Shown here: piece after piece, positions 1,262 to 30,869 of the stretch
How the letters are laid out: each line of letters begins with the position of its first letter
Position numbering within the stretch: the first letter of the stretch is position 1
Source of the DNA: Halichondria panicea
Lineage: Eukaryota; Porifera; Demospongiae; Suberitida; Halichondriidae
Direction of reading: 5' to 3'
NCBI RefSeq assembly: GCF_963675165.1
Contig: NC_087385.1
Location: 1,612,501 to 1,676,500, forward strand
Length of the DNA: 64,000 bases
Program-made: the position numbers and the translations under genes
The notes under the pieces: generated by a model
Told to the model about the DNA's origin: nothing
What the model saw: the letters and a program-made list of their open reading frames with translations, nothing else
The model's database searches: none

Positions 1262-2803
1262 CTAATTCTTGCCGGAGCTGAGACCTTCGATGGGGTTGGA
1301 TTTCTGTTGGAGCAGCTTCTCACGAGTAGCAGCTTCCCACTCTTTGTTTTGGAAGGTGGGAGGTCTCTTGGGCCCAACTGAGAATAAGGATAAGAGAACA
1401 CATTATAAATAGACAAAAGAAATTCCATCCTATCAAGCAATGCATTGCTAATACCGTATACTGGGTTCTTGCCCATTGCTATGTGGTTGCTTAGGTATAC
1501 AGTGGTTTATATACATGTACCATACACACCGTTATTAGTCTATAACTATAACTTTCGACTGCGTATAGTTGATCATTATTTTGCGAATGACACTGTACAA
1601 GCCTAATTTGGTTTATGCACATGCTCACCCTTTGTGTCTTTCATTGCAATCTGTGTGAAAATTCACAATTGGCAAATCGAAAAAAGTTTCATATTTGTGT
1701 ACGGTAGCTATGATGGATGATGTGCTATTAGTGTACTAGATTTTGTACAGCAATTAATCCCGTATCAGATCCGGTCCAGTAATTGCACGTCGTCAATGAC
1801 AATGTCTGTTTTCAAATAACGGCCACGTCTGAAAATGCTATTAAAACTGCATCATAAACGATTAGTACGGATACTCGTGCAACAAGGGATTAACAGCACT
1901 CATAACAAGCACTGGCAAGGTTAATAGCACTTGGCTTCACCTCGTTTAACCAAACTATTAATTATTAATCACAGGCTGCGGTACTGGCCTATATGCTAGA
2001 CATGCAATGTAAACACAGAGAAAACTAGAGCACTGAAGTGCTAACCCTCGGCTGTTACGTTGACATGAATAGATCTATAAAAACCAGAAGAGTATTAAAA
2101 GAACCAACAACCTACGATTTCACTAGAGACCGGTAAAGGATCACCTGAGGCTGTAAACGCAGTGCTATGGGATCCAGGTGAGTAGACTCACATATCACAA
2201 ACAAACAGACAAACAAACCAAAGTACTACTATACCCGTGGCCGCCCCATGCGCGCCTCAGGTAATTACAAAGCCTTAAACCGATTTAACGTGTTTTAACG
2301 TGTTCTTAAAATTAAGAACGATAGCCTTTGTAAACTGAATGGAATGTTTAATGCTATTATGTTCTCACGTACTTGTGTTACTGAGAAAAGTGGACAAGAG
2401 GGTACCAGCAACCACACCCACAAGAACAGCAGGGATGACTTTCCTATACTCTCTTCGTGGAGCCGCCAACTCTTTGAAAGTAGCCGGGAAAGAGGCCCTG
2501 TACACTGCAGGTACGTAGAGGAGAGAAATACAGTGTGCTTTATATAGAATACAGACATAAAATATGCTTAGAATACTGCTCAAAGTATTCTAAGCAAAGT
2601 CCACACATCTTACACTGAACAATTTCTTCTTTAGTAAGCTCTTTCCAGGGCCCTCTGGCCTTCTGGGCTAGCTGTTGTAGTTGAGGGCTCTCCAGCACGG
2701 CTCCTTGGTGAACAGGGCAGGGAGTCGCCACTGAGGGCCTGGCATGGTTATAGGGATCTGTCAGAATCGCACTAGAATACCACCTCTTCGCTAGGAAAGC
2801 CAT
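1262..2803 (-). CDS. COX4: Cytochrome c oxidase subunit 4 (COX4), mitochondrial
   Basis: Three exons on the minus strand: 2803-2614, 2504-2382 and 1377-1262, all GT-AG and in phase, giving about 142 residues. The N-terminus [12 protein letters not shown] looks like a short mitochondrial import signal. The next part, [19 protein letters not shown], matches the COX4 matrix helix region; [15 protein letters not shown] across the first junction matches the COX4 'ELYR.KF..SF' motif; a single membrane helix [18 protein letters not shown] follows; the tail [18 protein letters not shown] then NPIEGLS matches the COX4 'NPIQG' end. The protein is a nuclear-encoded inner-membrane subunit of respiratory complex IV. 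It is shorter at the C-terminus than the vertebrate form, which ends in a W-rich extension. It is head to head with DECR1, 154 bases apart. The second intron is about 1 kb and holds no gene I can see. Confidence 0.9.
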
Positions 2804-2957
2804 GACTAGACTGACCAGACAAACTTTACCAGATAAAGGTCAAAAGGTCGTGAAAAGGAACAAAGATCTACCCACGTGCGCCGTGGATAAGTTTTTAACT
2901 CTACCATCACTGGAATTTTTCTGCACAGAAGCCTCTAAGAAGAGCTTTGCAGCTAAT
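2804..2957. promoter_or_regulatory. Shared divergent promoter of COX4 and DECR1
   Basis: Only 154 bases separate the two ATG codons, which point away from each other, so the transcription start sites must overlap or be very close. The interval holds a CACGTG E-box (about 2873-2878) and taaaggtca (2834-2842), which fits an extended nuclear-receptor half-site. No TATA box is evident. Use of these sites is inference. Confidence 0.6.
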
Positions 2958-6295
<3,338 letters not shown>

Positions 6296-12497: not shown

Positions 12498-13793
12498 ATG
12501 GCAGGTAGCCAGTACAATGGGCAATCAATTTACAGTATCTTGGAGGAGAGATATTACAATCTGACATGCCCAGTCTCAGCTGCAAGTCACACGGTGCATA
12601 CAAGACTGTACCAAACTGCAAAATGGTCGAATTCGGAGTCCCTGGCCAACAAAACAGAGTCAGTTCATGGATCTGTCTTCAACATTGAATTCTCTCCAGT
12701 AGACGACCTGGCATTAACTGTGTGCTCTAATAGAGCTATTCTATCCTACGATCCAAGGTTGAGTTCGTCCAAACCAATCCATGCACTTCGAAATGCTCAC
12801 GATGATGCTGTAAACTGTTTAACATTTATCGATCATCATTCATTTGCAACTTGTTCGGACGACAAAACCATTCGGATTTGGGATCTACGACAGCTCAAGT
12901 ATAGTATAGCAGTGCTACAAGGCCACCAAAACTGGGTCAAGAACATTGAATATGACAAGAACTCAGGACGTCTGTTTAGTGTTGCTTTGTACGATGGAGT
13001 GAGGGAGTGGAAGATGGACAAAATGTGCGATTATACGAGTGAACAGTGCGATAATCTCGTCTTTGAAATAATTGACCCTGTTCGAATGAGGCTCTCCCCC
13101 AACGGCAATAAGATGTTTATCAGTGAGCGAGACAATAAGTGTACGGTCATAGACCATTTCAATGGAACATGTCTCAAAGATATAGCTCCTATCGTTAAAG
13201 ATCTCCGTGACAACATTTACCAGTCGGGCACCTACAAGCTGGGGTGCAATCGACCGTCAATGTACACAATGAGTGAACGAAAAGGAGATAGTTCATATCG
13301 ATCAATCATGTCAGCATGTTTCTTTCCTTATGGTGAATTTATCGGACTGAGGCATATTGACATTAGAAATAACCAATTTCTGTGTGAAAACTTAACTCTT
13401 TTTGACCTAAGACAAGACGTCTACAAGCCAAAATATTCATCTAAAGACTGTCAAAGGAAATATTTGAAGTATGCTGATGAAACTTCACCTCGAGAGTCGT
13501 TGGACATTATCAAAGAGATTTCTGTGAGCAAAGATGGTCGAATAATTGCGTCTCCATTTGATAGGGGTGTTCGACTACTGGCTATTGATGAGCAAGCTAC
13601 ACCTCCAGACTTATTTTTTGATGATCGATATCACAGCTCATACAAGGAACAGAGCACTCTTGATCTTCACGCCATGCAGACTATGACTGGGCACAAGAGA
13701 GCAGTACTGACTTGTAAGTTTGCTAACAATGATTTATTGCTAGCTACAGGTTGCCTTGACGGACACATTCTTTTTCATAAACCTCGTTTCTAA
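12498..13793 (+). CDS. DCAF10: DCAF10-like WD40 protein, intronless and intact
   Basis: One open frame of 431 residues from ATG 12498 (an earlier in-frame GTG at 12465 is not needed). WD40 repeats are clear: GSVFNIEFSPVDDLALTV; AHDDAVNCLTFIDHHSFATC then SDDKTIRIWDLRQL; GHQNWVKNIEYDKNSGRLFS; VRMRLSPNGNKMFIS; ISVSKDGRIIASPFDRGVRL; and the end HKRAVLTCKFANNDLLLATG then CLDGHILFHKPRF, which lines up with the vertebrate DCAF10 (WDR32) terminus. DCAF10 is a substrate receptor of DDB1-CUL4 ubiquitin ligases; the 'IRIWDLR' motif is the WDxR-type DDB1 contact. The absence of introns, unlike other host genes here, suggests a retrocopy. A decayed inverted paralog lies at 14976-16262. Confidence 0.85.
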   Translation: MAGSQYNGQSIYSILEERYYNLTCPVSAASHTVHTRLYQTAKWSNSESLANKTESVHGSVFNIEFSPVDDLALTVCSNRAILSYDPRLSSSKPIHALRNAHDDAVNCLTFIDHHSFATCSDDKTIRIWDLRQLKYSIAVLQGHQNWVKNIEYDKNSGRLFSVALYDGVREWKMDKMCDYTSEQCDNLVFEIIDPVRMRLSPNGNKMFISERDNKCTVIDHFNGTCLKDIAPIVKDLRDNIYQSGTYKLGCNRPSMYTMSERKGDSSYRSIMSACFFPYGEFIGLRHIDIRNNQFLCENLTLFDLRQDVYKPKYSSKDCQRKYLKYADETSPRESLDIIKEISVSKDGRIIASPFDRGVRLLAIDEQATPPDLFFDDRYHSSYKEQSTLDLHAMQTMTGHKRAVLTCKFANNDLLLATGCLDGHILFHKPRF

Positions 13794-14115
13794 AGTAGAA
13801 TGTTTGTTTTATCATGTGAATTACTATAATTATGTAGACGTATAAGTGTGCACTTTTCACCTCTTCTAGTTTTGTGTGACAACTTTAATAATCTTACGGT
13901 GAAGAGTGTTAGTGTATAGTGTATAATTAATTGTCTATAGTTTGAGGTAATTTGCATCAATTATCACTTTTCACCTCTTTTGGTTAATAAATGTGATCTT
14001 CTTTAATCAGTGTTACCAGGAGTGCATATTCATGCACTCCTGGTATTAGTGTATAGTGTATATATCTAGTTTGAGTACGTAATGTCTGTTAAAAGTAACA
14101 AGGTAGCACTAATTA
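13794..14115. other. 3' flank of DCAF10 with hairpin
   Basis: No coding exon. Partial duplication: 'cacttttcacctctt' occurs twice (about 13852 and 13965) and 'gtgtatagtgtata' twice. A perfect hairpin taccaggagtgca/tgcactcctggta lies at 14013-14045. Confidence 0.6.
14013..14045. repeat. Short perfect hairpin
   Basis: Arms of 13 bases around the centre tattca, then a GT-rich tail. No U-run follows, so it is not a bacterial-type terminator; function unknown. Confidence 0.8.
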
Positions 14116-14678
14116 ATGGGGTCTAGTACGAGAGTGTTCTCTGCGCAAAAACAATCAAGGAGATTTATAGCCGGAAGAAGGCTAATCCGTGAACAAGCCC
14201 GTGGCCAATTTTATGGTAAGCTACAGTACAACATTTATTTTCTGCGGCTAATTGTATATACACAGAGGAGGTCGGACATATACAAATTTATGTTATATTA
14301 TTCTTACATGGCTTGTTTTGCTCTCAAGCATTACTTTTGTTGTTTTTGTGTGGACTTAATTATATACCTACAGGGTTTCATCTAGTGGGGGGGCAGGGGG
14401 TGAACCTTCCCCTCAAAAATGTTGAGAATAAGGACATTATCACGTTAGTCACCTCCTATAGATGGAACCCTGACCTATGCATATTCACTGACTCACTATA
14501 GCAACCATGTATCAGTGCAGCAAAGAGCAGGCTGCTCAGTGGGAACCTCTGGCATGGGTGGAAAATTCAGCAACCTCACCTCGAGCCTAAGCAATTATCG
14601 AGAATGTTAAGAGAGATTGACATTGACCACCTGATCATTTACGATGCATCTGACGTCAATGAACGTTATGTGCAGTGA
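14116..14678 (+). CDS. Hypothetical small three-exon gene, 116 residues
   Basis: Exons 14116-14215, 14374-14447 and 14502-14678 join in phase (1, 0) with GT-AG introns of 158 and 54 bases. The protein begins with a basic stretch (SAQKQSRRFIAGRRLIREQA), continues FHLVGGQGVNLPLKNVENKD and ends LREIDIDHLIIYDASDVNER. I recognise no family. The donor of intron 2 (gttagtcacc) is weak, and without that splice the reading frame stops at 14501. It may be a real short gene or a remnant caught between the two DCAF10 copies. Confidence 0.4.
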
Positions 14679-14975
14679 GCTGATGACATAATTATGTTAT
14701 GGCTTGTATTTAATTCTAGCTTTTAAAAGTTTTGATATTCCGGTTTTAAGTATCATAGGCACGAGCATGTTATAATATTATGTAGAAAATTATGTGTGTC
14801 AAATAAATATTTCTGATCATCCCCTCACATTCAATCATACCTCACCACGTCTAATTGAAGCGTTCAGAGCTGATCGAGCTCAGTGAGCCGCAATACTATG
14901 CAGCTCCACACCTCCTATCATTCAATATACAGCTGCAAAATACATATAAACAAACAAACTATAGAGCTATAATTC

Positions 14976-16262
14976 AGAAATGAGATTTATGAAAAAGAAT
15001 GTGTCCATCAAGGCAACCTATAGCTAGCAATAAATCATTGTTAGCAAACTTACAAGCCTGTACTTCATTATTGTGCCCAGTCAGAGTCTGCATAGTGTAG
15101 AAATCAAGGGTGCTCTGTTCCTTGTATGAGCTGTGATATTGATCATCAAAAAATAAATCAGGAGGCGTAGCTTGCTCGTCAATAGCCAGTAGTCAAACAC
15201 CCCCCTCATGCGGAGATGCAATTATTCGGTCATCTTTGCTCACACAAATCTCTTTAATGTCTAACGACCTTTTTCCTTAGTGTACTTCAAGTACTTTTTT
15301 TGACAGTCTTTAGATGAATATTTTGGCTTGTAGACGTCTTGCCTGAGGTCAAGTAAAGATAAATTCTCCCTCATTATGTCATCTCTAAAATCATTATCAG
15401 TATGCCTCAGTCCGATGAATTCACCACAGTGAAAGAAAAATGGTGATTTGATTGATCGATTTGTATCTGAAGCCGTTCCTCTTTGCTCACTCATTGTGTA
15501 AATTGATGGTCGATTATATCTCCTGTCAATGTTAGTGTAAAAAAATTATCACGGAGATCTTTAATGACAGGAGCAATGTCGTTGAGATAGTTTCCATTGA
15601 AATGGTCTATGACCGTACATGTATTGTCATGCTCACCGATAAACATCTTATTGCTGTTGGGGGAGAGCCTCATTTGAACAGGTAAATTCATTTCGAAGAC
15701 GAGATTATCGTACTGTTCACTCGTATAATCGCACATTTTGTCCATCTTCCACTCCCTCACTCCATCGTACAAACCAACACTAAACAGACGTCCTGAGTTC
15801 TTGTCATATTCGATGTTCTTGACCCAGTTTTTGTGGCCTTGTAGCACTGCTATACTGTACTTGAGCTGTCGTAAGTCCCAAATTCTAATTGTTTTGTCGT
15901 CCGAACAAGTTGCAAATGTAAGAGGATCAATAAATGTTAAACAGTTTACAGCATCATCGTGAGCATTTTGAAGTGCATGGATTGGTTTGGATGAGCTCAG
16001 CCTTGAATCGTAGCAGAGAATAGCTCTATTAGAGCACACAGTTAATGCCAGGTTGTCTACTGGAGAGAATTCAATGTTGTAGATAGCCCCAAAATCTGAC
16101 TCTGTTTTGTTGGCCAGGGACTCTGAATTCAACCAGTTAGTAGTTTGGTACAGTCTTGTATTCACCGTGTGACTTATAGCTGAGACTGGGCATGTCAGAT
16201 TGTAGCAACTTTCCTCCAAAATATTATAAACTGAATGTGTACTGGCTAGTACCTATATACCT
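14976..16262 (-). pseudogene. Decayed inverted copy of the DCAF10-like gene
   Basis: Minus strand; aligns with 12498-13793 along nearly its whole length, including the 3' end ('cacattctttttcat'). The middle reads well (AHDDAVNCLTFIDPLTFATC, SDDKTIRIWDLRQL) but the copy has an early stop after MAGIY, a shift near 15490-15550, a stop after KYTKEKG at 15261, and further damage towards the end. Residue-level identity with the intact copy in the open part (15491-16219) is high, so the duplication is fairly young. It is tail to tail with the intact gene. Confidence 0.85.
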
Positions 16263-16345: not shown

Positions 16346-17561
16346 CGAGGGGTCCGCAACGGGCCAAAATTCTGTACGAGATTCTGGAATCTTAATTAAT
16401 TAAAGATTCCAACGAGATTCCGAGATTCATTCAAGATTCCAGAGATTCCATTCAAGATTGCAAGATTTCTAGAAGATTTCAAGATTCCAAGATTTCTAGA
16501 AGATTTCAAGACTCCATTCAAGATTCCTACAAGACTTTTGGCTAGTCCTGGGCGTGGCCTTTCAGAAGGTTGTGGGCCACGCCCTGATCTAGTCGATCGC
16601 CGCCCTCCTTCCGGGCAACGGTAGAGGGCGGCGGCGCCCGACTTGCCCTGATCTACAAAGCTAGATCATAATACTAGATCCATAGCCATAGGCAGGCTAG
16701 GCTATAGACATCTAGTATGAGCACATTAAAGTATATGAATTGATGAACATAAAATAATTATACTTGTTGACTATAAAGTCATTGATTCTAACTACTTTAT
16801 CGACACTTGGTGCAATATCATAATCCCTTTTTTACTTTGGCGGCGTTGATGCATCTACCAATCTTCACATCCGTCACAGCCTACCATCCCTTGGCCATCA
16901 TCTGCACATCGACAGTAGCAATAGACAGGGATTTTCAAAGTGCGTGCAGGTCCTGGTCTTTTTGTTCGGAAGACAGTACCATTGTTTTTGTAGTGAAACA
17001 CGTGTACAAGTGGTCCCTCATTTGCTGCTGGTCGTAAACGAGGGAACATGGATCTAGTCCATGTGCAATGCTGGTACAATATGCAGCTGCAAACAGTGCA
17101 CAGTCATTTGGTTTGGGAGAGCTTTGTCCATCCTGTGATGCGCATAATTACAATTTTTCATGTACACTGGTACACTGGTATACTGCAGGTTAGACTCACC
17201 GGCACCATAAGCTCACTACCATTAAGATGAGAAGGGGAGCCTTGTCCCTCGCTTCGTCCATCCTGTGATGCATATACAAACAACAATTATTACGCTGGTA
17301 TGCTGCATACCACCATAAACTCACTCTCATTAAAGAGTGGACAGTTTGGACTTGGAGCCTTGTCCCTCGCTTCGTCCGTCCTGTGATGCATAGATCTATA
17401 TATAATTATGCAACTTTCAACTATAAATTATTACGCTGGTGCTGCATCAGACTCACTCAACCATAAGCTCACTCTCGGCATTAAGAGTGGGCAGTTTGGA
17501 GCTGATTTTGGGAGAGCTTTGTCATCACTTTACTGTTCAGCCTGCAAATTTTCATGACTTA
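16346..17561 (+). repeat. Left 1.2 kb inverted arm
   Basis: Inverse of 20932-22172. Ends inside at 'cctgcaaattttcatgactta'-like sequence shared with the other arm. See the composite element. Confidence 0.9.
16850..17140 (-). pseudogene. Ulp1-type protease / PHD finger fragment, left arm
   Basis: Mirror copy of the fragment at 21359-21640. Minus-strand reading gives KIPVYCYCRCADDGQGMVGC then DGCEDW followed by a stop, which is the start of a PHD-like finger; the preceding frame gives NDCALFAAAYCTSIAHG and YDQQQMRDHLYTCF, typical of the last part of a Ulp1/SUMO-protease domain in which the catalytic Cys lies in 'DCGLFA'. Here the two parts are in different frames and the finger is cut short, so it is a relic. 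Confidence 0.55.
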
Positions 17562-18083
17562 AACTTCCAAAAACACTTCTAGCTCTGTGTTCTTGGTCTT
17601 ATATGATGCTTCTTACCATTCTGGAGGGCGTGTAGAAGCGTTTTTTTCTTTCCAGGCCAACAAACTCTCACAAAATAATAATAATATGTAGACTAACTCC
17701 ACTTAAAATGGCGGCCAGAGCCAAGGAAAACAGCCTCTTGTGAGCTTTCAGTAGCCTTTTTTCCAAATATCTCTTCTACATGCCCTGCATATAGTGAAGC
17801 TACAGTAGACTGTACCTAAGCTTTATAGTAAAAATGTCTATTCGAGCCATAAAATGACTACTGCGTTTCAGCTGGACTTCCAGCTCATTCTAGCTGGAAA
17901 AGATCACTAGATCTAGCTCATGAATAATTAATGAGCAAACGGTTGACCGTAACCTTAATCGCTCCCTCTGATTTTTATCTAGGTAGAAAATCATCATTAT
18001 TTAAATTGGCACCCATGAATTAATTAATATACATGTACATACTGCATGCATGATTGCATATAGGCGCTACATACAGGGATTAT
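17562..18083. other. Non-coding spacer with an empty site matching the element at 44756-45317
   Basis: No coding exon. The stretch 17930-17990 (gagcaaacggttgaccgtaa, then ccttaatcgctccctc) is a diverged copy of the sequences that flank the TTAA-inserted foldback at 44756-45317, with a single TTAA at 17955-17958 where that element sits. 'ataaaatgactact' at 17850 also recurs at 44535. Confidence 0.55.
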
Positions 18084-18092
18084 GATCAGATG

Positions 18093-19185
18093 GGGTTGTT
18101 ATAAAACAGGGAATGAGAAATGAGGAAATGAGAAATAAGAAATGAGGAAATGAGGAAATAAGAAATAGGAAATGAGGAAATGAAGAAATAATATATATAT
18201 GTTTACAATCATCACCATGGCATTAATTTTCATCACAATAATTTTATGACATTGTTATAATAATAATTATTATACACAAAAGTAATGACTGATATCAGCC
18301 AAGAAGCTAGTAGGTGACTAAGTATTTAGTTATCAAATATATAATTATAGTGGCACCTCCACACAGTACAGGTTGTCGGACACATTGTAAGAATTAAATT
18401 TTACCATCGCTTCAGATGGCACAGTGAGCTTTCTTCATTAAAGGTAGCATCAGCTTTCACTAGGCATTGCTTGTGAGAATGGTAATGGGAATTGCTTTCT
18501 TCACGCTGTAGCGAGATTGGATATGATACCAGTACAGTGTACTAATGTCATTACTTCCTGCAGCTTTACGACAGGCCTGAGTCCCATCCACACAAAGTCT
18601 CCCCACTTACATTCAAGTTTCCTGCAGAATTTGACTGTATCGGACTGGCAGATCATTAGAATTTGCTTGGTTTGACAAACAGTTTTGGAGGTTTCTTTGC
18701 TGTTACTTACATGTAGATGTTGACATTGAGTCCAGTCCATTGACTATCACTTGCCCACCGGATTGTGAAATCAGTGAATGTATTGCCAGTATAGCCACGC
18801 ACAGGTAAATTGTTTGAGACTGTGGGACTGTAGGACAGTACATGTAAGTACCGTTACGTAGGTAGATCTGATCTCTGAACCATGCCAGTCGTACATGGCA
18901 CACAAGTAGATAGAGGTAGAGAGTGTCACACCGTGTACCAGAGGAACATAAGTTCTGTATGGTGGCAGAGCACCAGGAAACTTGTCAGCACCAGGAGGTA
19001 CGTACCTGTAGCTCAGTAGATGTTAGCTTCGTCTTCAGACTTGCTCTGCCGATAGATATGCTCTCAGTCTGCCTAACAGCTCATTTCTCGTTCTCATTTC
19101 CTCATTTCCTATTTCTTATTTCCTCATTTCCTCATTTCCTCATTTCTCATTTCCTCATTTCTCATTCCCTGTTTTATAACAACCC
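18093..19185. mobile_element. Foldback element with 9-base target duplication (Mutator type)
   Basis: Terminal inverted repeats begin GGGTTGTTATAAAACAGGG and continue into A/G-rich words (gaaatgagg). The flanks carry the 9-base direct repeat gatcagatg at 18084-18092 and 19186-19194. A 9-base duplication points to the Mutator superfamily. The interior has no transposase; on its minus strand there is one splice-flanked open piece (about 18714-18860, SYSPTVSNNLPVRGYTG, ending at gtaagt) and another after ctgcag at about 18625 (CKWGDFVWMGLRPVVK) that may be captured gene fragments. Family of these is not recognised. Confidence 0.7.
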
Positions 19186-19194
19186 GATCAGATG

Positions 19195-19374
19195 GCAGAG
19201 GTCAAGAAAGCAATGTCACAGGTCCAAACCAAGGGCGTATACAGAGAAGAGGGCATGCAACTCACTATGTATCCTACGTACTCATCCGACTTCGTATCAG
19301 AGACCGGATATGCTAAAAATAGAATCCAGTATACGGACGTGAACAAATGGGCGGTGTTGTTTACGGAGTTATAA
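19195..19374 (+). other. Short coding-like fragment of unknown origin
   Basis: Open frame MAEVKKAMSQVQTKGVYREE, then GMQLTMYPTYSSDFVSETG, ending at a TAA at 19372-19374. The ATG overlaps the right target duplication of the foldback element, so the reading began differently before that insertion. A degraded inverse copy (GVYREEGMQLAPFSESSDF on the minus strand) lies at 20314-20395 next to the poly(A) tract. Unidentified; may be an exon of a host or element gene. Confidence 0.3.
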
Positions 19375-19682
19375 TTATGGGCGTGTACATCAGAGCTGCC
19401 TACCTAGCTAGCTAGCTAACAGTGCAGTATTATTTTAGAGAAGTGTCATGACCAGTCCTAGTCCAGCCAGGTCCAAGACAACCCCTTCGAGCATGAAGTT
19501 GAGTGCTGGGCGCATTGTTAAGAAGTACCAGAGACTCAGGAAGACAGATTATTGTACCTAGGTTTCATCTTCTTGGAGTTGCAACTGTTGGATGGTTTGC
19601 CTTTGCCTTTGACACTGCTAGTACAAGCCATACTGCTGCTGAGAACTAGTTTTACTATGCTGCAATCGAGCTAGCTAGGATT

Positions 19683-20281
19683 TACCTTGTGCGGTCAAAG
19701 GTTACGCCGTGGGCGTTTTTGTGGGCAGTTCTAAAAATAGCTCTGATGTTGTGGCCCAGAGCTTCTGGAGCAACGATAGACAGAGTGCATTTTTTGATGT
19801 CAGGGTCTTCAACCCGTACGCACCTACCTATCGCCGCTCCACCATGGCCCAGAGCTACAGAAGAAACGAGATGGAGAAGAAGAGAGCATATGAACAGCGT
19901 GTAAGAGAAGTCGAACATGGATCGTTCACGCCTTTGGTTTTCTCTGCTGCTGGAGGTATGGGTCCGGCTGCAGATATTGTCTACAAGAAACTAGCTTCAA
20001 TGCTGGCAGAGAAACAGGACAAAACATACAGCACAACTCTGAATTGGATGAGATGTAGGCTAAATTTCTCTCTCATAAGATCAGAGATTATGTGCATCAG
20101 AGGCTCTAGGAAGTCATTCACACTGGCACTATTGACCTAGCAACTCAAGAAGGCCGGGTGCTATCGGTCTGAAACATGTGTTTTCACCCAGGAACTTTAT
20201 AAAATTATGTCACATGTTTTTGTTGTTTTTTCTTGGTTTGTTTTTTTGTTTTGTCTTTTGTCTTTTATCTTCTCACTTGCA

Positions 20282-20313
<32 letters not shown>
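19683..20313 (+). mobile_element. 5'-truncated retroposed fragment with poly(A) tail (LINE-type)
   Basis: An open frame to 20140 reads FFDVRVFNPYAPTYRRSTMA, YRRNEMEKKRAYEQRVREVE, HGSFTPLVFSAAGGMG, ending RCRLNFSLIRSEIMCIRGSR. I know this C-terminal block as a very common one in invertebrate retrotransposon-associated proteins, but cannot attach it firmly to a clade. It is followed by a 140-base T/G-rich 3' part and 'aataaa' running into about 31 A (20283-20313). The poly(A) tail and missing 5' part fit target-primed insertion of a LINE-like transcript; the long intact A tract suggests youth. Confidence 0.55.
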
Positions 20314-20317
<4 letters not shown>

Positions 20318-20510
20318 CAATACGAAGTCGGATGATTCTGAGAATGGGGCGAGTTGCATGCCCTCTTCTCTGTATACGCCCTTGTCCAAACTAATTACAG
20401 CCATGAAAGAGAGTGTTGTTGGTAAACATTATATGTAGTTTCACATAATAGTTATGGCCGGCCCACGAGATGGTTTCAGGTTAGGTGGTGATCATGTGGT
20501 GATCATGCTC

Positions 20511-20930
20511 AGCGAGGGGTCCGCAACGGCCAGGAATCTGGTACAAAATTTTTGGAATCTCAACTGAAATCTTGAAATCTCACTTGGAATCTTGAAATCT
20601 TGTGGAATCTCTGGAATCTTGTGGAATCTCTGGAATCCCTTGGAATCTCTGAAATCTCTTGGAATCTCTGGAATCTTGTGGAATGTTAATGAGATACCCG
20701 TAAATGTATATAAATAATCCGTATACCTCGCCGTAGATTATTATTGAGGTTGCAGTAGCCTCGAGACCAGGCCGATTATCGAGGCTACGGTTGCAGTTGC
20801 GGTTGCAGGCTCAGCTGCTATTTACATATCTCTCTCTATGAGAATCCTCCTCATAGCAGCTCTGTGTGCAGATTATAGACGATTCCTAAAGAGATTAAGG
20901 TGAGTTTAACCAGCATAATAATAATAATAA
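20511..20930 (+). repeat. Dispersed 5'-end unit, copy 1 (second copy at 44103-44534)
   Basis: Starts gaggggtccgcaacggccag, continues with about 170 bases of 'ggaatctc/gaaatctt' words, then a TATA-like 'gtatataaataa', a short palindrome (agcctcgagaccaggccgat, inverse partly following), and an ATG-headed exon-like piece (MRILLIAALCADYRRFLKRL) ending at a good donor (aag/gtgagt). The unit ends at 'cagcataataataataataat'. Nearly identical to 44103-44534. Looks like the promoter and first exon of a transposon whose remaining parts are missing. Confidence 0.7.
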
Positions 20931-20931
20931 T

Positions 20932-22172
20932 TAAGTCATGAAAATTTGCAGGCTGAACAGTAAAGTGATGACAAAGCTCTCCCAACATCAGCTCCAAACT
21001 GCCCACTCTTAATGCCGAGAGTGAGCTTATGGTTGAGTGAGTCTGATGCAGCACCAGCGTAATAATTTATAGTTGAAAGTTGCATAATTATATATAGATC
21101 TATGCATCACAGGACGGACGAAGCGAGGGACAAGGCTCCAAGTCCAAACTGTCCACTCTTAATGAGAGTGAGTTTATGGTGGTATGCAGTATACCAGCGT
21201 AATAATTGTTGTTTGTATATGCATCACAGGATGGACGAAGCGAGGGACAAGGCTCCCCTTCTCATCTTAATGGTAGTGAGCTTATGGTGCCGGTGAGTCT
21301 AACCTGCAGTATACCAGTGTACCAGTGTACATGAAAAATTGTAATTATGCGCATCACAGGATGGACAAAGCTCTCCCAAACCAAATGACTGTGCACTGTT
21401 TGCAGCTGCATATTGTACCAGCATTGCACATGGACTAGATCCATGTTCCCTCGTTTACGACCAGCAGCAAATGAGGGACCACTTGTACACGTGTTTCACT
21501 ACAAAAACAATGGTACTGTCTTCCGAACAAAAAGACCAGGACCTGCACGCACTTTGAAAATCCCTGTCTATTGCTACTGTCGATGTGCAGATGATGGCCA
21601 AGGAATGGTAGGCTGTGACGGATGTGAAGATTGGTAGATGCATCAACGCCGCCAAAGTAAAAAAGGGATTATGATATTGCACCAAGTGTCGATAAAGTAG
21701 TTAGAATCAATGACTTTATAGTCAACAAGTATAATTATTTTATGTTCATCAATTCATATACTTTAATGTGCTCATACTAGATGTCTATAGCCTAGCCTGC
21801 CTATGGATCTAGAATAAATAGTATTATGATCTAGCTTTGTAGATCAGGGCAAGTCGGGCGCCGCCGCCCTCTACCGTTGCCCGGAAGGAGGGCGGCGATT
21901 GACTAGATCAGGGCGTGGCCCACAACCTTCTGAAAGGCCACGCCCAGGACTAGCCAAAAGTCTTGTAGGAATCTTTCTGGAATCTTGGAATCTTGAATGG
22001 AATCTTGAAATCTTCTAGAAATCTTGGAATCTTGAATGGAATCTTGAAATCTTCTAGAAATCTTGCAATCTTGAATGGAATCTCTGGAATCTTGAATGAA
22101 TCTCGGAATCTCGTTGGAATCTTTAAGATTCCAGAATCTCGTACAGAATTTTGGCCCGTTGCGGACCCCTCG
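20932..22172 (-). repeat. Right 1.2 kb inverted arm
   Basis: Inverse of 16346-17561. Contains at 20960-21370 about four iterations of an exon-like unit: tgcatcacag / gacggacgaagcgaggga... / aatgagagtgagtttatgg, each 110-140 bases, the last running into the Ulp1-like fragment. Confidence 0.9.
21359..21640 (+). pseudogene. Ulp1-type protease / PHD finger fragment, right arm
   Basis: After a cacag acceptor the frame reads DGQSSPKPNDCALFAAAYC, TSIAHGLDPCSLVYDQQQ, MRDHLYTCF. This fits the C-terminal part of a Ulp1/C48 cysteine protease, with DCALF in place of the usual DCGLF around the catalytic Cys. In another frame IPVYCYCRCADDGQGMVG then CDGCEDW fits the first half of a PHD-type zinc finger, ended by a stop. 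This protease-plus-finger pairing is common in transposon-carried genes of cnidarians and sponges. Two frames and truncation show it is not functional. Confidence 0.55.
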
Positions 22173-22612: not shown

Positions 22613-25600
22613 CTCAGAGCTGGCACTAGTTGGGCGGAGCCCGACCGTCCCTGACGGGAGGTCGGGTTGCAAGCCTATCTGGAATGGGATTGGCTTTGTT
22701 CACTCGATGTCAGGAACGGAAGTTTATTTAACCACAACACATCCCGCGAAATGCGCGCGAATTGTTCAAACACATGGCTTGAGAGTTCAGTGATGGCAAA
22801 CAGTGAGTCTGATAGTGCTAGTCGTGGCTGCCCTGATTGGGCACAGCAATTAAAGTCAATAGGCCAACAATACTATGGAGGAATAGTGGATGACGCTGAA
22901 AGCCTCCTAGAGCTACACAGCAGGTCTACTGTAAGTACATTTGGTACCAGGACGTCAGTGAGCAAGCTCTCCAAACAGGTGCAGGTGGACGATGGAAACA
23001 AATCTCCCATTGTTACCAAAGTAAGTAATGAAGTCAGCGAACAGTCAAGGGGTACACGTACATTATAATAACATTGTTAATCAAAAATAATAATTATTGT
23101 AATTATTATACACGTATAGGCAAGGGTGTATTGGAATCATTCAATTGAAGGTCACAATATATCATTTGATGGCATCCCATTTATTGTTTCAAGAATTTGA
23201 AAACAGCACTGCCAGTTTGGTCAGCAGTACTTCAAGGGATAAACATTAACATCTAGTCGAACACGTCTCCAAGGTACACGCAAAGTGGGCTGTCCAGCAC
23301 ACATACATGTACACGAGGTGATGCTCTTCCCATCTTTTGCTGTTTCTGAACCGAGCACCCATTTACTTGGACCTAGGAAAATGAAAGAAACAAAGGCAAC
23401 AAAAATGGCAGCTTTAAAGAAAGTTCTCGTAAGCGGGGAGGAAGTGGAGACAACAACAAAATATTTTGTCCTACTCCCCACTGTACAAGCTCATGGCAAA
23501 TATCATCCAACATCTGGCCTTGCTGGATTTGCCCAAAAAGTCCATCCTAAAATAACTGAAAAAATCAATACACTTGTAGGAGAAGGAATAACCGAATTGC
23601 AAGAGGTGAAACGAGCCCTCAGACACTATGTTATACATTGTCTATTCCCAGATCCCAAAGATCGTCCATGTGAGACTAACAGGGCATACTATCCAACGAA
23701 CACTGATATCAAGAATCATGTTTACTCAGCAAAGTGTGCCCAAGAATTATCAAAGTTAGATCAAGACAATCTTAAACTAAAAATTGATAAGTGGAAGAAT
23801 GAATCCATTAACCATGTTCCACTATAGATAGACCTTATACTAAGATAAAAGAAGAAAATACCTGTGAAGAAGAGGATCCTCTGATATTTTCTCACACCCT
23901 TCTTTATGTCCATCAGGAACAGTGGCAACAGCACCTGCTAAAAAGATACGGAAACACAATTGTTCTCATGGATGCGACTTATAAAACAACAAAGTATGAA
24001 CTGCCTATGTTTTTTGTAACTGTAAAGACTAATGTTGGCTATACACCTGTTGCAGATTTTGTCATTCAGTCTGAGACGAGTGACCATATTGCAGAAGCAC
24101 TTAGGGTCATAGCAAGCTGGAACCCAGAGTGGAGTCCACCATTCTTTATGACAGACTATTCAGATGCAGAAATTACGGCTATTGAGTCTGTTTTTCCGCA
24201 CTGTAGAGTGTATTTGTGCGACTTTCATCGTGAACAGTGTTGGGAACGGTGGATGAAAGATAAGAAGCATGGGCTTTCACTTACCGATGGAGAAATTCTG
24301 TTGGGAATGCTCCGAAAATGTGCTTGGGCAGCACCGGGATCAAATGGCCTATCATTAGATCACTACTATCAGCAGGAAGTTGGCAACCTACAGAGAACAG
24401 ACGTGTGGAAAAACAATGGGCAGGTTAGGGACTGGCTAAGTGCTAAGTGGCTACCAAATTCACAGGTAAGAGTTTGTAAAACTATATAGTATACTTTTTA
24501 TGTAATGTGCTATATTTAGGATACTACTGCAACGAAGATATACATGTATACGCATACAAGTGTATAATTCATACACACATGCATGCATGTACACACCTTT
24601 TCTATAGAGATGGGCTAGGGCTTTTCGAGATAACGACTATCATGCAGCCATAAACACAAATAATGGAACCGAGGCTCTCAATAAAGTTTTGAAATATAAC
24701 TATTTACCGAAACGAAAGAACATAACTTTATCATCTGTGTGTACCACACTTATCGAGTCTTTCCTACCAGATGCTCATCAAAAATATGTATGTTTAAACT
24801 ACATGCAGTCAAGCCAGTACAGATCTTACAAGAGCAGCGTTCCAGAATATCTACGTGATAGACCAAAAACTACTATCCTCCATTGCCTAGAAAGGAAGTC
24901 CAAAGCACTTAAATATGTCACAGATGACATTAAAGTGGTCGATAGCAAACAAGGGATTTTTACAATTGAAGGGTCGAAGAACAAGAAACACACCATAAAC
25001 TTTGGAATCGAAAATGAAGATGGAATGCCTTCATGTACATGTCCGGACTGGCAACAATGGCACATTCCATGCAAACATTTCTTTGCTGAGTTTAACTTGC
25101 AAAGTGGGTGGGCATGGTCAAACCTTCATCCAAAATATCTGAACAGTCCATATCTCTGTACGGACTCTCACGTACTCCATGACTACTTTCATAACACTGC
25201 CTCTAATGAATCACTCAACACTGATTCGTTAAATAGCTCAACTGATACAGTAGCCCTCATATAAAAGTTCCCGTTTCGTTTTCGTTGCACGAAGCGTTCC
25301 GTTTTTACGGCGCCAGAAAAACGCAAATTGAACGGAAGCGTATTATTCATAAATGCACCGTAATTACGTTCCGTTGTTACGTTGTACGGGAAAAAAAACG
25401 GGTAAAATTTGATGAGTCAGTACGCGGTACGCAGCTACAAGTAGCTAGCCGTCTCTTACTCTCTATTAAAGATAGCTAGTCTCTGTGGACGTGGATGGAT
25501 CTGTCTCTGTGCCTTTGCAGAGCAACCATGTTACAGCAGCGTTTAGGGAGTCCAAGAAGGCTTGCAATGCCATCAGAGTTATTTTGCTCAAAGAAATAAC

Positions 25601-25761
25601 AACTCAAAGGTTAGATCTATTAGTGCAGTGGCAAAGGTGATTGATTTGAACCTTTTGACAGGTTGTGATTGGAGTGTCAGCAGTATAAAGATAGTGAGTG
25701 TCCAAGGTAGTAGTCATTCATTTATCAACCATTTTGAAGATTGAAGATATTTAACAAGATT

Positions 25762-27618
25762 ATGGCTTTGAGAAGTGTTTTGAAGGAACTTCAGCTAAGA
25801 AAGAGTGAGCATATACTGTAGACAGACTTGTACTGTAGTTGTGTGTGTTGGATGTACATGTACATGTATGTTTAATACTTGTAGCTACTGTACTTGCATT
25901 AAATAACTCTTTATCTCCCACACAGAGAAGTTTTTCCTTGTGGAGTGGCACTGCGACAAAATGGTCACCGTTGTTGAAGAAAAACACATCCGTGCTCGAG
26001 ATGGTCCCATTACCAAGGGGAAAGACTACTTCGTAAAATATGGAAGCAAATTCTTGGAAGCAAATGTTCTTGCTACTGGTACGTCTATGTATGTTTTAAT
26101 GTACATATGTCTGTACAATGCACACTGGTATAAATACATGTATGCTGTGTAGAACAATCTTCATGGTACAAGTTTACTATGTTTGACGTTTTGTTGACAG
26201 GGACAAAAGAAGAAATTGAAAAGATTGAGCTAGAACACCACACTGAAGATGACCTGCCAAAGGCAGCAAAGGAACCAGCCAAGAAGAGGGGACGAAAGAG
26301 AAAACAGGACGGAGACAAAGAAAACGCCCAAAGCAATAAAAAAAAGAAAACTAAGGAACCAGGAAAAATGTTAACTGTGACAGACCCACAGCTCCCAATA
26401 GACCTTACGACGGAGTCTGAAGCCCCCCAACCCCTGGATCTGGATCCCACTGACCACCCCACTGACCCCAAGCCCCAGGATCTGGATCTCACTGACCCCA
26501 AGCCCCAGGATATAGACCCCACTGATCCGAAGGCCCAGGATGTGGACCCCGCTGACCCCTGCCAAAATTCTTCATTCAGCTCAGTTATTCCCATGCAGAA
26601 CATTTTAAAACCGAACCAACATAAGTCCCCTAACCGCAGCCCACCTTCTCCGCAACCACTATTTTCTCCCCTCTCTTCTAACCCCGACTATTACGACTGT
26701 GGTAAGTACATGTACATTGTATACTGTACCTTTGTGACTATAATTATACATACATATTTATTACCTCTATTTTGTTTTTTTACAGATAACCATAATCCAA
26801 GTGATATGGTAATCAGCAACCAATCAGTCGAGTATAGTAACAACGATACTGCTGAGTCCACAGAGCTCCTTCAGGCCAGGCTGGACATACACGAGCTACA
26901 AGAAAGAGTGGGCATTCTTGAGCACACCCTGACGTCTGTGCTAGAGCGGTTGGAGCAACACGAAGAGCGGTTGGAGCGACAATGGCATGTATCCGCATCT
27001 CAACTGCAGATGCCAAGCCCCGTCAACCACTCGTACAACCCACCTATTAACACCTCTTCACCTCAAACCCCACACAGATTTCTCCAACCCTATCGAGTAC
27101 AGCAGCCACCCCAACCCCAAGTACAGCAGCCACCCCAACCCCAAGTACAGCAGCCATCCCAACCCCAAGTACAGCAGCCACCTCAAACCCCTTCTCAAGC
27201 CCAGCAGCCAGTCAACGCAGACCCCAGTCCACTTCCACTGCGCGGAGAGAAGGCCATGGACTCTGCCTTGCCATCTTCCGAGATAAAAAAGGACAGATTA
27301 CAATCAAAAAAAGACACTTTGGCCCAGAACAAAAAATTTCACTATGAAAGCAAGGCGCCGACACTGGCGTTGCGATTGGCGAAACTTACGTATTTTGGAG
27401 AGGACGTAATGGCCAGGTGTACACCAAATGGATGTAGAGACCGACCAGCTCTTCCAAGACAAGAACTCTACGAGCTGAAGTCGGAGATATTTAGACTATT
27501 CCCAATTTACTGGTGCAATCCAGTGGGATTTGAAGCTCTATGGGGAAATTGTTTGACAGCAATTGAGCAAGGCTGTAAAAGAATGAGGAGATCGGCTCTA
27601 ACAAATCAAGTGAATTAA
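25762..27618 (+). CDS. BEN-domain protein, cargo of the Tc1-type element
   Basis: Four exons, 25762-25804, 25926-26078, 26201-26701 and 26786-27618, all GT-AG and in phase, 509 residues with no break. Residues 1-66 form a small domain (KFFLVEWHCDKMVTVVEEKH ... GKDYFVKYGSKFLEANVLATG) of the type often found before BEN domains. A basic patch KKRGRKRK (nuclear signal) follows, then D/P-rich repeats (DPTDPKPQDLDL), a leucine-heptad coiled coil at about 260-300 (LQERVGILEHTLTSVLERL), four VQQPPQPQ repeats, and a C-terminal BEN domain at about 425-503: LALRLAKLTYFGEDVMARCT, LPRQELYELKSEIFRLFP, GFEALWGNCLTAIEQGCKRM. BEN domains bind DNA and recruit chromatin factors. It lies within the transposon ends and converges with the transposase. 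Confidence 0.85.
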
Positions 27619-27890
27619 TGCTAACATTATTATTTTTAAAGTCACATTGTTTTACACTTTTTCACTGTTAATTGCACTTACTTGGTTACTTGTATTTTAT
27701 TTTATTGCACACTGTCTTTTTCACTGTTAATTTTGTTTATTGCACTTACTTGGTTACTTGTATTTTATTTTATTGCACACTTATTTGTTTTGCATCATCT
27801 GCACATCATTTCTTTATTATAACTTCATCATAATAACTTCATACAGTAAAAAAAATAGAATTGTGTAATAGTGTACAAGTTACTATGCTG
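27619..27890. repeat. T-rich convergent 3' region with an imperfect tandem duplication
   Basis: Between the two convergent genes. A unit of about 82 bases ('ttgcacttacttggttactt', 'gtattttattttattgcaca') occurs twice at about 27660-27800. Contains several possible poly(A) signals for both strands. No coding sequence. Confidence 0.65.
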
Positions 27891-28998
27891 TCAGTAGCCA
27901 GTTGCTGCTCCTTGTAACTCTATAACTTTGGGAATTACTTTCTTCAGATGGCCTATGTATTTCCCGCATTTTGCAATCGTAACTGTTTTCCAAAATTTCT
28001 GTATTCCATCGATCAGTTCTTGCTTGGTCTTGGGTTTTATTTCTCTCCTGAGGAATTCTTTTAGCTCGTGCCAGAGGTTTTCTATGGGATTACAGTCTGG
28101 GCTTTCTTTCTGGTGGTGTCTTCCACCAGTTGACCCCATTCACTCTCATATAATCAGCAGCATGTCGTGACGTATGTTTTGGGTCATTGTCTTGCATAAA
28201 GCGATGGCCGTTAGGGTAGATGCTATTGATAAATGGGATGAGGGTTGCATCAAGGATGGACGTGTACAGTGGGGCATCCATTATTCCTTCAAATATACAG
28301 ACAGCTGTTCTTCCCCTCAAGCTAATTCCAGCCCAGACATGTACCTTAGTTGGATGTTTTGGTCTGTAGGGGGAGACACAAATGCATGGTCATGAATGAC
28401 ACGGAGGAAAATACACAAATTAATAATTATACAGTCATGTACATCTGTGTTAATGCAATGTGCTATACCTCGGTTTCGGTCTAGGAGGCTCTCCTATTTT
28501 TCTGCAGCACGTTCTTCTGTGGGACTCCATTTGTACTGAGCATTCATCCGACCATATAACGTCTTCAAAATTGTTGTGCAGGTTAGCACTTGCCCAGTCC
28601 CGTCTCTTGACCTTGTTGACATCTCTTATAAGCTGACAGTAAGCTGATCCTCTAAAAGTCCAGCCGAGAATGGTTCTAGCTCTGAGGATAGTGGCTAGAC
28701 TGAGGTTAATCCCATTCTGGTTACAGAGAGCAAAGAGCTGAACGGCAGTAGTCTCATCATCTAGTCTCATCTGCGTTTCAACAAGCCTTTTCACTTCAGA
28801 TGTGATCTTGGTTGGTCTGCTGCTACCTTCTTTTCTTTTGATTGTTCCAGTCTCCAAGTATCTGGTCAGAAACTTCCATATTCCTCGCCTACTGGCAATA
28901 ATGCCCTCGTCTCGAAGCTTCTTAGCAATCGTTGGGGCTCTATAGCCACGTCTGTAGAAGATCAGAATTCTCTGTTTCGTATAATCACTGAACACCAT
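27891..28998 (-). pseudogene. Tc1-type DD34E transposase, intron-containing, one frameshift
   Basis: Starts at ATG 28998 with a paired helix-turn-helix region (YTKQRILIFYRRGYRAPTIA; ETGTIKRKEGSSRPTKITSE). Catalytic residues: Asp in VIWSDECSV, Asp in FMQDNDPKHTS, Glu in CNPIENLWHELK, with 34 residues between the last two, the Tc1 signature. An intron (28468-28364, GT-AG) separates PRPKPR from PKHPTKVHVWAG, which is uncommon for this family. At about 28100-28112 'gaaagaaag' looks like a four-base duplication of 'aaag' that shifts the frame between TPPE and SPDCNPIEN. Otherwise open to the stop at 27891. It is probably a recent inactivation of this copy. Confidence 0.85.
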
Positions 28999-29353
28999 CT
29001 TGAAATAATATAATACTGGCTAGATCTAGCTAGCTGGCGAGCTATCAGCAACGCTACAGTACAGTTATCAGACGCTAAAGAAGACTAGATTTACCCCACG
29101 TGGCCTCCGTTATTACGGAATAAGAACGGAAATTTTTCTTACCGTTTCCGTTCCGTTCTAAATTTTAATGAGCCTCGCCCAACGTTACCGTTTCGTTACT
29201 ACGCAAACGTTTTGACGCCGTTGAACGCTACGGAACGGGAACTTTTATATGAGGGCTACTGTAGTCTCCCATCAACTAACGGAAGTCATAACCCCATCCA
29301 GACGGAACTTCCCAAACGGAAGGTATGTTAATAATGGTCCCGATTTATTAATA

Positions 29354-29549
29354 CAGTTGAGCCTCGGTTATCCAAACACCTTTGTCCCCGGGCCCATTCG
29401 GGTAAGTGAAATATTCGGATAATCAAACCCTTCTTTTTGCCAGCCACGTGGGCAATTTCCTACTGCGCATGCTCAGATTGCACTATGCTCTAGCATTCGG
29501 ATAATCGAGGATTCGGATAACCGGGATTCGGATAACCGAGGCTCAACTG
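29354..29549. mobile_element. 196-base pogo/Tigger-type MITE inside MULE 1
   Basis: Ends CAGTTGAGCCTCGGTTATCC and its inverse; flanked by TA (29352-29353 and 29550-29551). These ends are close to those of Tigger/pogo elements. The body has three 'attcggataa' words. It sits in an intron of the MULE transposase gene. Confidence 0.85.
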
Positions 29550-30869
29550 TACAGTTACCATGCATAATTATACATGCACTCACTGTAATACAGACATTCA
29601 TGACCTCACTAAAGCAAAGTGGTGAGCACGCTAGAACAAGCTTGAAAGTGTTACAAACACTCACCTACAACTGCACTGATCCAGATCGGCTTGATCAATT
29701 GGCTACTAAGCTTGACACCCTCATCACAGAGTTTCGTGCAATTCTACCAAAAACTGAGGGATTGATTCTTTGGCCTCAAGCACGTTTCTCTGCAAGAAAG
29801 AAAGCCCAACAAATCAAACACAAGTATCTGAACCTCACTTCAAGGCTAAAACGTGGACGCCCGAAGTCTTATTGGAAGTACAGAAACAGAGTGGGACAAA
29901 AAGCTGATGCTCTCCGTAAGGTACAGTAAAATTAATGATCTCATTATATGGACATTATAGTTGATATTGCATTTCTAGAAAGACGAGAGAGCACCTGAAA
30001 GTAATACTCATTGTTCTGACAGAGTCCTGTTAAACACATGGTAAAAGCACTAAGACAGGTATGTCCTCACTTTCAATTATCGGTACACGGTGCATGCATT
30101 CCTTATATTTTTGTAGGCAAAGGAGAAATTACTAGAGGAAAACGCTCCATCTACTCTCAGCCACAAAGCAGTAAATTCTTTGTTTCACTACACTTTTTAA
30201 TGTATGGATGTATGGACGTACTTATATGTATATAATTATTTGAGATGTATAAATTATTGACAAACATGCAGGGAGAAAAGAAAAGGAAGAGGTGCAACAA
30301 ATGCTCTGAGTGCAAAAAGAGGATTGTGGTTCATGTCATACTCATTATAAGAGTATTTAATCATTTTGCGCAAGAGTGTTGTTTACAAAAGTCAGGTGCT
30401 TCACACGTGAACAAGCTTCCTGTACTTCACATCGAGTGAACAAACCCAATCCCAATTAAATACTGCGAGTGAAAGTCTCAGATTGCACACGTGATCTAAA
30501 CGTTGCATTTTTGTGCTTAAATTATGTCAATTTGTTACTATGTGCGCCCTTATATAATTAAAGTACATGCTGACCAAACTACTGCTCAAAACAATAAATC
30601 CGTGGGATGCCATCGAATGAAGGATTCCAAAACACCGTTAAGGATACATGTTCTTAAAACTATTAACTCACTGTCATTACTTACTTTGATAACAATGGGA
30701 GTCTGTTCATCGTCCATGCACCTGCACCTTGCTCACTGAAGTCCTGGTACCAATGTACTCATAGTACAGTATATAGAGCTGTGCAGCTCTATAGGAGGCA
30801 TTCAACATCATCCACTGACTACTCCTCCATAATTAGTTGTGCCCAATGCCTAGTTTGCCTTCCAACTGC

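Follow-up and report, generated by a model that had tools for sequence, protein, structure and literature searches.

Tc1/mariner transposons usually follow a single-gene design and are taken to move with their transposase alone. The element described here, from the sponge Halichondria panicea, shares with Tc1/mariner (ITm) DD34E elements the TA target, a short terminal inverted repeat (TIR) starting with CAGT, and a DDE_3 transposase of the DD34E type, but differs from them in its length of 4.0 kb, its intron-bearing transposase gene, and a convergent four-exon gene encoding a BEN-domain protein. Additional genes are also carried by the ciliate Tc1/mariner transposons TBE, with three genes reported to be under purifying selection (PMC4724952), and Tec, with a site-specific recombinase (PMC7325037); these extra genes differ from that of the sponge element, no BEN domain is mentioned in the available text of the two sources, and the hosts are ciliates rather than an animal. 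PIF/Harbinger, likewise an animal DNA transposon with two genes, encodes besides its transposase a DNA-binding protein that, according to the available text of PMC9179366, co-evolves with the transposase. It belongs to another superfamily with a 3-bp target site and a Myb/SANT protein, whereas the sponge element has a TA target and a predicted BEN-fold C-terminal domain.

BEN genes on a mobile vehicle are known from bracoviruses, where they are spliced, encode a C-terminal BEN domain, are delivered by wasps, and occur in the genomes of moths and butterflies (PMC4574769, PMC4190172). They differ from the sponge gene in residing on viral circles and in having an N-terminal PHA02737 domain, and the available text mentions no transposase partner. 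BEN appears in the available text of PMC5704228 only in a reference, which concerns those bracovirus genes, and the literature on BEN and transposons, judged mainly by titles and the openings of abstracts, describes no BEN-bearing transposon. Among BEN relatives with solved structures, BANP and BEND3 bind unmethylated CpG motifs. They are host factors with 15–19% identity to the BEN protein of the element, and we know of no transposon that carries them. In Arabidopsis, VANDAL transposons encode VANC, a protein whose targets are often tandem repeats and which is reported to cause loss of DNA methylation (PMC5735166). VANC may serve as a working analogy for the BEN protein of the sponge element, whose end arrays would be candidate clustered targets. 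The plant protein is, to our knowledge, unrelated to the BEN protein.

Within the analysed window, a 64,000-nucleotide stretch of H. panicea DNA, positions 25246–29263 comprise a single TA-flanked Tc1/mariner insertion with two convergent genes. The element itself (25248–29261) measures 4014 bp, outside the one-gene, 1.3–2.4 kb range that is typical of Tc1/mariner elements without defining them. Its terminal 20-mer matched exactly at 25248–25267 (plus strand) and 29242–29261 (minus strand), with a chance expectation of 0.00, and the inverted repeat including the TA extended over 34 nt at 97% identity (25246–25279/29230–29263). The TIRs proper occupy 25248–25279 (plus strand) and 29230–29261 (minus strand) and are bordered by TA target-site duplications at 25246–25247 and 29262–29263. 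The left flank (23547–25247, plus strand) showed 99.2% identity to C1 (L084) and holds a reading frame, SWIM-like by eye, which is uninterrupted across the joined empty site. Because this empty site is preserved elsewhere in the genome, with a single TA, the two ends belong to one insertion, as the initial annotation had proposed, and an origin of the ends from two unrelated insertions is ruled out. The exact end sequence occurred 61 times in the genome, compared with 0 for the reversed-pattern control, and a TA was found directly at the insertion in 59/59 distinct flanks.

The transposase gene lies on the minus strand, with exon 1 (28469–28998) encoding the presumed HTH part and exon 2 (27891–28363) the catalytic part (DDE_3, DD34E), separated by a GT-AG intron (28364–28468); in the copies C1:5703k and C8, the protein position at which the reading frame is interrupted is identical. 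Pfam matches of the HTH region remained sub-threshold, namely PAX with 21.5 bits (cut-off 22) and HTH_32 with 20.6 (cut-off 33.7). DDE_3 was matched with an E-value of 1e-11 on an ORF within exon 2 of a second copy, L009, on whose open frame the spacing of 34 was counted by hand. Relative to L009, the window copy bears a 4-nt frameshift (28102–28105, minus strand) that falls after the second Asp but before the Glu, while in L009 the second Asp is replaced by Gly. These observations confirm the intron-bearing DD34E transposase with one frameshift that had been annotated.

The BEN gene, on the plus strand, consists of four exons with GT-AG introns throughout, and its 509-aa product is letter for letter that of NCBI LOC135341036 isoform X2 of H. 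panicea (P0001), in agreement with the intact four-exon gene read earlier from the same DNA. Exon 1 (25762–25804) opens with the start codon at 25762, exon 2 (25926–26078) encodes a conserved N-terminal domain (KFFLVEW...VKYGSKFLEANVLATG), exon 3 (26201–26701) a low-complexity linker with basic stretches that appear NLS-like by eye, and exon 4 (26786–27618), ending in a TAA stop, a presumed coiled coil, Q/P repeats, and the BEN domain. The coiled coil is presumed by eye at approximately residues 257–299 (26860–26988). An IDLT motif in exon 3 (residues 132–135, 26398–26409), which we take to resemble a SUMO-interaction motif, is present in all four aligned rows, corresponding to three distinct lineages. 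The C-terminal domain (27244–27615) is, in the predicted structure (pLDDT 91.6), a BEN fold: model residues 16–124 align to BEN structures, and the top 14 PDB matches among those listed in the fold ranking were all BEN domains. The predicted fold and its helix offset suggest that the protein would bind DNA in a sequence-specific manner.

Pfam PF10523 gave no match in the whole BEN protein of the element or in its domain pieces, and the 6 places obtained in a genome-wide PF10523 search included no element copy; four other BEN genes of H. panicea lie above the Pfam cut-off. Additionally, when the element BEN was compared with host BEN domains by profile, the match lacked significance (0.1% probability), a profile-based PDB sequence search returned three chance matches, a second protein search using the C-terminal region recovered only itself, and the viral contigs searched yielded no match. 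Pfam overlooks a fold-level BEN domain here, and for this reason further BEN genes carried by transposons may have escaped notice.

The window copy is a member of a two-gene Tc1/mariner family that combines a DD34E transposase and a protein of predicted BEN fold in convergent orientation. The second 4-kb copy, L009, contains both genes and differs from the window copy by 0.4% substitutions (16 substitutions and four indels), and its unrelated flanks rule out a segmental duplication as its origin; together with the exact ends counted above, it substantiates the multi-copy, cargo-bearing family that had been suggested. The convergent layout was observed in 8/8 loci with both genes, down to 58% transposase identity. 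The sister transposase C16 had no BEN match nearby, and the gene-less MITEs of the family are 99.5% identical to each other. Among at least 29 matching stretches, no intact BEN gene was located outside an element, which contradicts a BEN gene at one locus predating the element, an alternative named at the outset, and leads us to reject a host BEN gene merely bracketed by repeats.

Between old copies, dN/dS amounted to 0.06–0.07 for the transposase and, within BEN, to 0.08 for the BEN domain, 0.11 for exon 4, 0.21 for exon 2, and 0.40 for exon 3. Both genes are under purifying selection across diverged sub-families, with stronger constraint on the transposase, and because this selection acts on both between old copies, BEN is an inherited gene of the element. 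The initial annotation had suggested, from an intact BEN frame next to a broken transposase, that the cargo may be selected on its own. This view was not sustained, as older copies show decay in either gene (two stops in BEN exon 4 of C1:5703k, one stop in transposase exon 1 of C8), and the unequal intactness is uninformative on separate selection because the two full copies differ by so few changes. A host BEN gene captured once and hitch-hiking without a role in the element, its constraint stemming from a host function, would be compatible with the other BEN genes of the genome and with the damaged transposase and open BEN frame of both near-identical copies; we nevertheless consider it quite improbable, since transposase and BEN are inherited together in the same layout with comparable dS, no intact relative outside the element was among those found, and a neutral passenger would be expected to have decayed at dS ~1 or more, whereas the pair is retained to dS ~1 to 1.9.

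Both ends of the element carry subterminal CpG/CCGTT arrays, which were absent from the observations of the initial annotation and are a new observation. Upstream of the BEN gene, the left array (25248–25427) contains 19 CpG (observed/expected 2.32), and upstream of the transposase gene, the right one (29082–29261) contains 18 (observed/expected 1.99). The ratio reaches 2.0–2.3 at the ends compared with 0.46 in the element interior. The CCGTT-rich arrays are kept in diverged sub-families and in the MITEs, extend well past the TIR, and remain even where the sequence that can be aligned there is only ~40–55% identical. The 14 ends examined are non-independent, those of the window copy and L009 being near-identical, and C8 and C1:8446k sharing 99% identity past the TIR at their ends on the transposase side. 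CpG-rich termini are not exclusive to this element because they also occur in the neighbouring unrelated MITE at 29352–29551 (10.8 CpG per 180) and in a further short pair of inverted repeats at 5784–6017 (9.3 and 12.4 CpG per 180). When BEN-less Tc1 relatives (L078, L087, and L088) were considered as a control for CpG at the ends, no convincing TIRs were found in them; a 33-nt inverted repeat of L078 (1220–1252/4596–4628), with 6 and 3 CpG in its outer 180 nt, encloses a host-like exon and was not accepted as a transposon end.

The long retention of BEN alongside the transposase and the arrays at the ends point to an accessory or anti-silencing factor that an animal transposon itself encodes, and the family offers a way to test how such elements deal with CpG methylation. 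As the best mechanism, to which we assign an even chance, the BEN protein would bind the end arrays and thereby aid transposition and/or resist silencing, an end-binding role favoured by the position of the arrays. Acting as an accessory factor, it would oligomerize through its presumed coiled coil and, via the C-terminal helix of the BEN domain, recognize CpG-containing motifs clustered at the two ends, with the CCGTT/CpG arrays as the putative sites. Since one array lies upstream of each gene, the bound protein could act on both likely promoters as well as on the substrate of transposition. Its most likely effects would be to keep the ends accessible and free of methylation and to assist transposase assembly, and it may act in trans on MITEs retaining only the ends. 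The blindness of PF10523 to the domain, the negligible host BEN profile probability, the CpG-rich termini of other elements, the non-independence of the ends compared, and the missing BEN match near the sister transposase C16 speak against this, and the fold alone does not prove CpG preference, as NACC1 reads CATG. Furthermore, mariner transposase alone is reported as sufficient in the available text of PMC5704228, and BEN therefore need not be required. Tentatively, the end-binding reading may be carried further: the family might produce a CpG reader of its own, an oligomeric and methylation-sensitive BEN protein, to which CpG islands made by the element at both ends would be matched. This would amount to sequence-specific anti-silencing in an animal, with VANC as its plant counterpart, and gene-less MITEs would exploit it.

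Alternatively, the arrays may be bound by the transposase itself or be remnants that arose recently, in either case with no relation to BEN, and the BEN protein would then serve another step such as nuclear import or complex formation. The Harbinger Myb-like protein is described as binding the transposase and the termini and aiding nuclear import (PMC9179366), and a TIR-proximal TTCCCGTTCCG is common to 6/10 ends aligned here, but the arrays run well past the TIR and are retained where alignable identity beyond it is low, and we consider this explanation somewhat unlikely. Protection from silencing and repression of the element were further roles suggested in the initial annotation. For repression, the BEN protein might recruit host silencers to the ends and limit copy number, in keeping with the location of the ends upstream of both genes and the IDLT motif kept in the aligned copies, presumably SUMO-interaction-motif-like. 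Chromatin-related functions are reported for most human BEN proteins (PMC11472053), and a Drosophila BEN protein is described as a transcriptional repressor (PMC4574769). Such self-repression nonetheless appears unlikely, as low copy number is equally expected of a weak element and the MITEs expanded recently despite intact BEN genes. Guidance of integration, proposed in the initial annotation because BEN proteins bind DNA and chromatin, would steer insertions to particular chromatin; the 59 distinct flanks, however, had 4.52 CpG per 180 nt compared with 4.14 at window TA sites (4.07 without the element) and a GC content of 0.416 compared with 0.411 (0.411 also without the element), and the two full copies lie in unrelated flanking DNA. 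With no CpG or GC bias relative to window TA sites, CpG-guided insertion was rejected and guidance to particular chromatin appears very improbable. Overall, the initial interpretation is partly supported.

Regarding the relatives of the transposase, 2007 of the 2739 candidates scored reached E ≤ 1e-30, the best full-length one being 66% identical, and PF13565 or PF01498 is present in many of the relatives listed. More distant transposase matches within the sponge genome were located at C4:7237k (33%) and C1:3883k (36%).

The two-gene Tc1/mariner element (25246–29263 of the window with its flanking TAs) lies on contig C9 of the 131-Mb Halichondria panicea genome and is bounded by a 34-nt inverted repeat, TA included. 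An empty site was located at C1:10398483–10398777, where 295 nt spanning the junction are 100% identical to the joined flanks; in the repeat around it, identity is 99.2% with the left flank (1.7 kb) and 96–99% with the right flank. Since the flanks are joined there, the borders and the TA duplication are fixed, which settles the concern raised in the initial annotation that the ends might belong to two unrelated insertions in favor of a single one. With the element and one TA taken out, a reading frame runs on unbroken across the junction. The spliced BEN protein is identical across 509 residues to NCBI LOC135341036 isoform X2, and the four-exon model thus agrees with an independent annotation.

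The exact 20-nt end matched the genome 61 times (29 forward, 32 reverse), while the reversed pattern, used as a control, gave 0 matches. Exact end pairs number 22 once that of the window is counted, every one of them flanked by TA, and each of the 59 distinct flanks ends in TA. Seventeen pairs enclose gene-less elements with the same ends (MITEs) of 810–850 bp, with a median pairwise identity of 99.5% and a minimum of 96.5%; two of them, L029 and L030, have the same printed flanks and look like a single duplicated locus. A 93%-identical MITE (L010, C1:5821809–5825278) is split by a nested insertion of ~2.6 kb, whose open frame of 314 codons looks hAT-like by eye. Beyond the TA, the 59 flanks show a weak preference for A at −5 (34/59) and for A or G at −3 (43/59). 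The multi-copy family anticipated in the initial annotation was borne out by a full-length sister carrying both genes, L009 (C1:6747419–6751417), which differs from the window element by 16 substitutions across 4001 aligned sites, plus four indels. Because this copy is near-identical and its flanks are unrelated to those of the window element, the two-gene unit has moved whole and recently.

The BEN search returned at least 29 matching stretches, a lower bound according to the tool's own note, and merging placed both genes at eight loci: the window, C1:6749k, C4:3278k, C1:5703k, C8:2830k, C1:8446k, C17:4119k, and C12:2988k. The genes face each other in all eight, and several loci are decayed; at C12:2988k the BEN C-terminus is gone ahead of the transposase and a second facing pair of decayed fragments lies left of the end, while no left end was seen at C1:5703k. 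Incomplete BEN fragments lacking the transposase occur at four more loci, with the exact end present at C15:2577k and C12:3381k and none seen at C6:6678k and C1:8295k, and a transposase fragment stands alone within the 1.9 kb fetched at C1:6349k. Transposase exon 1 is 81, 79, 70, 69, and 58% identical to the window across copies. BEN seems to have joined the transposase at the base of the two-gene clade, because an intact, related transposase on C16 (46% identity in exon 1) had no BEN match in the 5 kb fetched.

Comparing the window with C1:5703k by the Nei–Gojobori method revealed constraint on BEN, with dN/dS values of 0.21 in exon 2, 0.40 in exon 3, 0.11 in exon 4, and 0.08 in the C-terminal domain; the transposase gave 0.06 in exon 1 and, for L009 versus C1:5703k, 0.07 in exon 2. 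dS was 0.98–1.85 across all blocks, and the two genes are therefore of similar age. Against C8, dS was saturated for window and L009, and pN/pS is given instead: 0.37 (domain), 0.39 (exon 2), and 0.65 (exon 3) for BEN, and 0.21 (exon 1, window) and 0.18 (exon 2, L009) for the transposase. Stop codons were left out (two in BEN exon 4 of C1:5703k, one in the C8 transposase). These ratios indicate constraint on both genes, stronger on the transposase. The intact BEN frame beside a broken transposase in the window copy had been read as a possible sign of separate selection, but it is no evidence of that: the L009 transposase frame is open, yet Gly replaces the second catalytic Asp; at C8 the BEN frame is open and that of the transposase broken; and at C1:5703k BEN is broken and the transposase open, though its catalytic motif bears a small insertion.

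The terminal 180 nt contain 19 and 18 CpG (o/e 2.32 and 1.99), whereas the interior has 70 in ~3.3 kb (o/e 0.46) and the window as a whole an o/e of 0.54, at similar GC throughout (0.43–0.45); TTCCGTT occurs six times in 320 subterminal nt and is absent from the interior. Of the 14 ends compared, which come from nine copies or sub-families of the element and are not independent of one another, 13 have 12–19 CpG, against a mean of 4.23, a 99% quantile of 11, and a maximum of 17 in random 180-mers from this one 64-kb window. The exception is the transposase-side C4 end (8 CpG), whose match to the window end stops after 48 nt. CCGTT/AACGG occurs at least three times in 12 of the 14 ends and twice in each C4 end, with at most two in random 180-mers, and the signal is kept at ends only ~40–55% identical beyond the terminal inverted repeat (TIR). 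An unrelated 200-bp TA-flanked MITE at 29352–29551, missing from the C1 copy of the flank (L084), also has CpG-rich ends (CAGTTGAGCCTCGGTTATCC; 10.8 CpG per 180, halves 9.1 and 12.7), and a short TA-flanked inverted-repeat pair at 5784–6017 has 9.3 and 12.4. The remaining TA-flanked candidates in the window, largely nested positions of two palindromes, have 0–9. Large, near-perfect palindromes lie at 12555–16204 and 16400–22172, the second with arms of up to 669 nt, 98% complementary.

BANP, a host BEN-domain protein, is reported to select unmethylated CGCG solely as an oligomer, which its own coiled coil can supply (PMC11472053). Since the element protein combines a coiled coil (by eye) with a BEN fold, and a CpG cluster lies at each end upstream of one gene, the BEN protein could be an accessory factor that binds the element ends and would act against silencing and/or in assembly. 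We regard this as the most economical reading and give it an even chance, inferring binding, methylation dependence, effect, and promoters. The suggestion that BEN guides insertion found no support, as to CpG, in the 59 insertion flanks.

TBE (PMC4724952) and Tec (PMC7325037) are likewise described as multi-gene Tc1/mariner elements, Harbinger elements have a Myb-like partner protein (PMC9179366), and BEN genes are reported on a mobile vehicle other than a transposon in wasp bracoviruses (PMC4574769, PMC4190172). No description of a BEN-bearing transposon was found in literature represented mostly by titles and abstract openings, with most subscription journals outside its scope. The sole BEN relative found beyond the H. 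panicea genome was P0002, whose 360 residues are encoded on an ENA contig of 3953 bp, in contrast to 2007 transposase relatives at E ≤ 1e-30 (120 listed), a figure that counts proteins rather than genomic neighborhoods. The metagenomic P0002 shares ALPSSEIKKD and a BEN-like C-terminus with the element protein and has a proline-rich N-terminus.

Elsewhere in the genome, L078 (C16:4342600–4347600) bears an intact single-exon DD34E-like transposase (2322–3356, minus strand; 345-codon open frame) adjoining a RasGEF_N-like exon (by eye), with no convincing TIRs around it, making it a candidate domesticated transposase. C1 has two further open transposase frames, one of 354 codons in L087 (1655–2716) and one of 325 codons in L088 (1396–2370), and a search for their TIRs gave none. 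Finally, the host BEN genes at C1:17712244 (L076) and C11:1203058 (L077), both with PF10523 over the cut-off, have 2037 bp in common at 100% identity, which looks like a very recent duplication.
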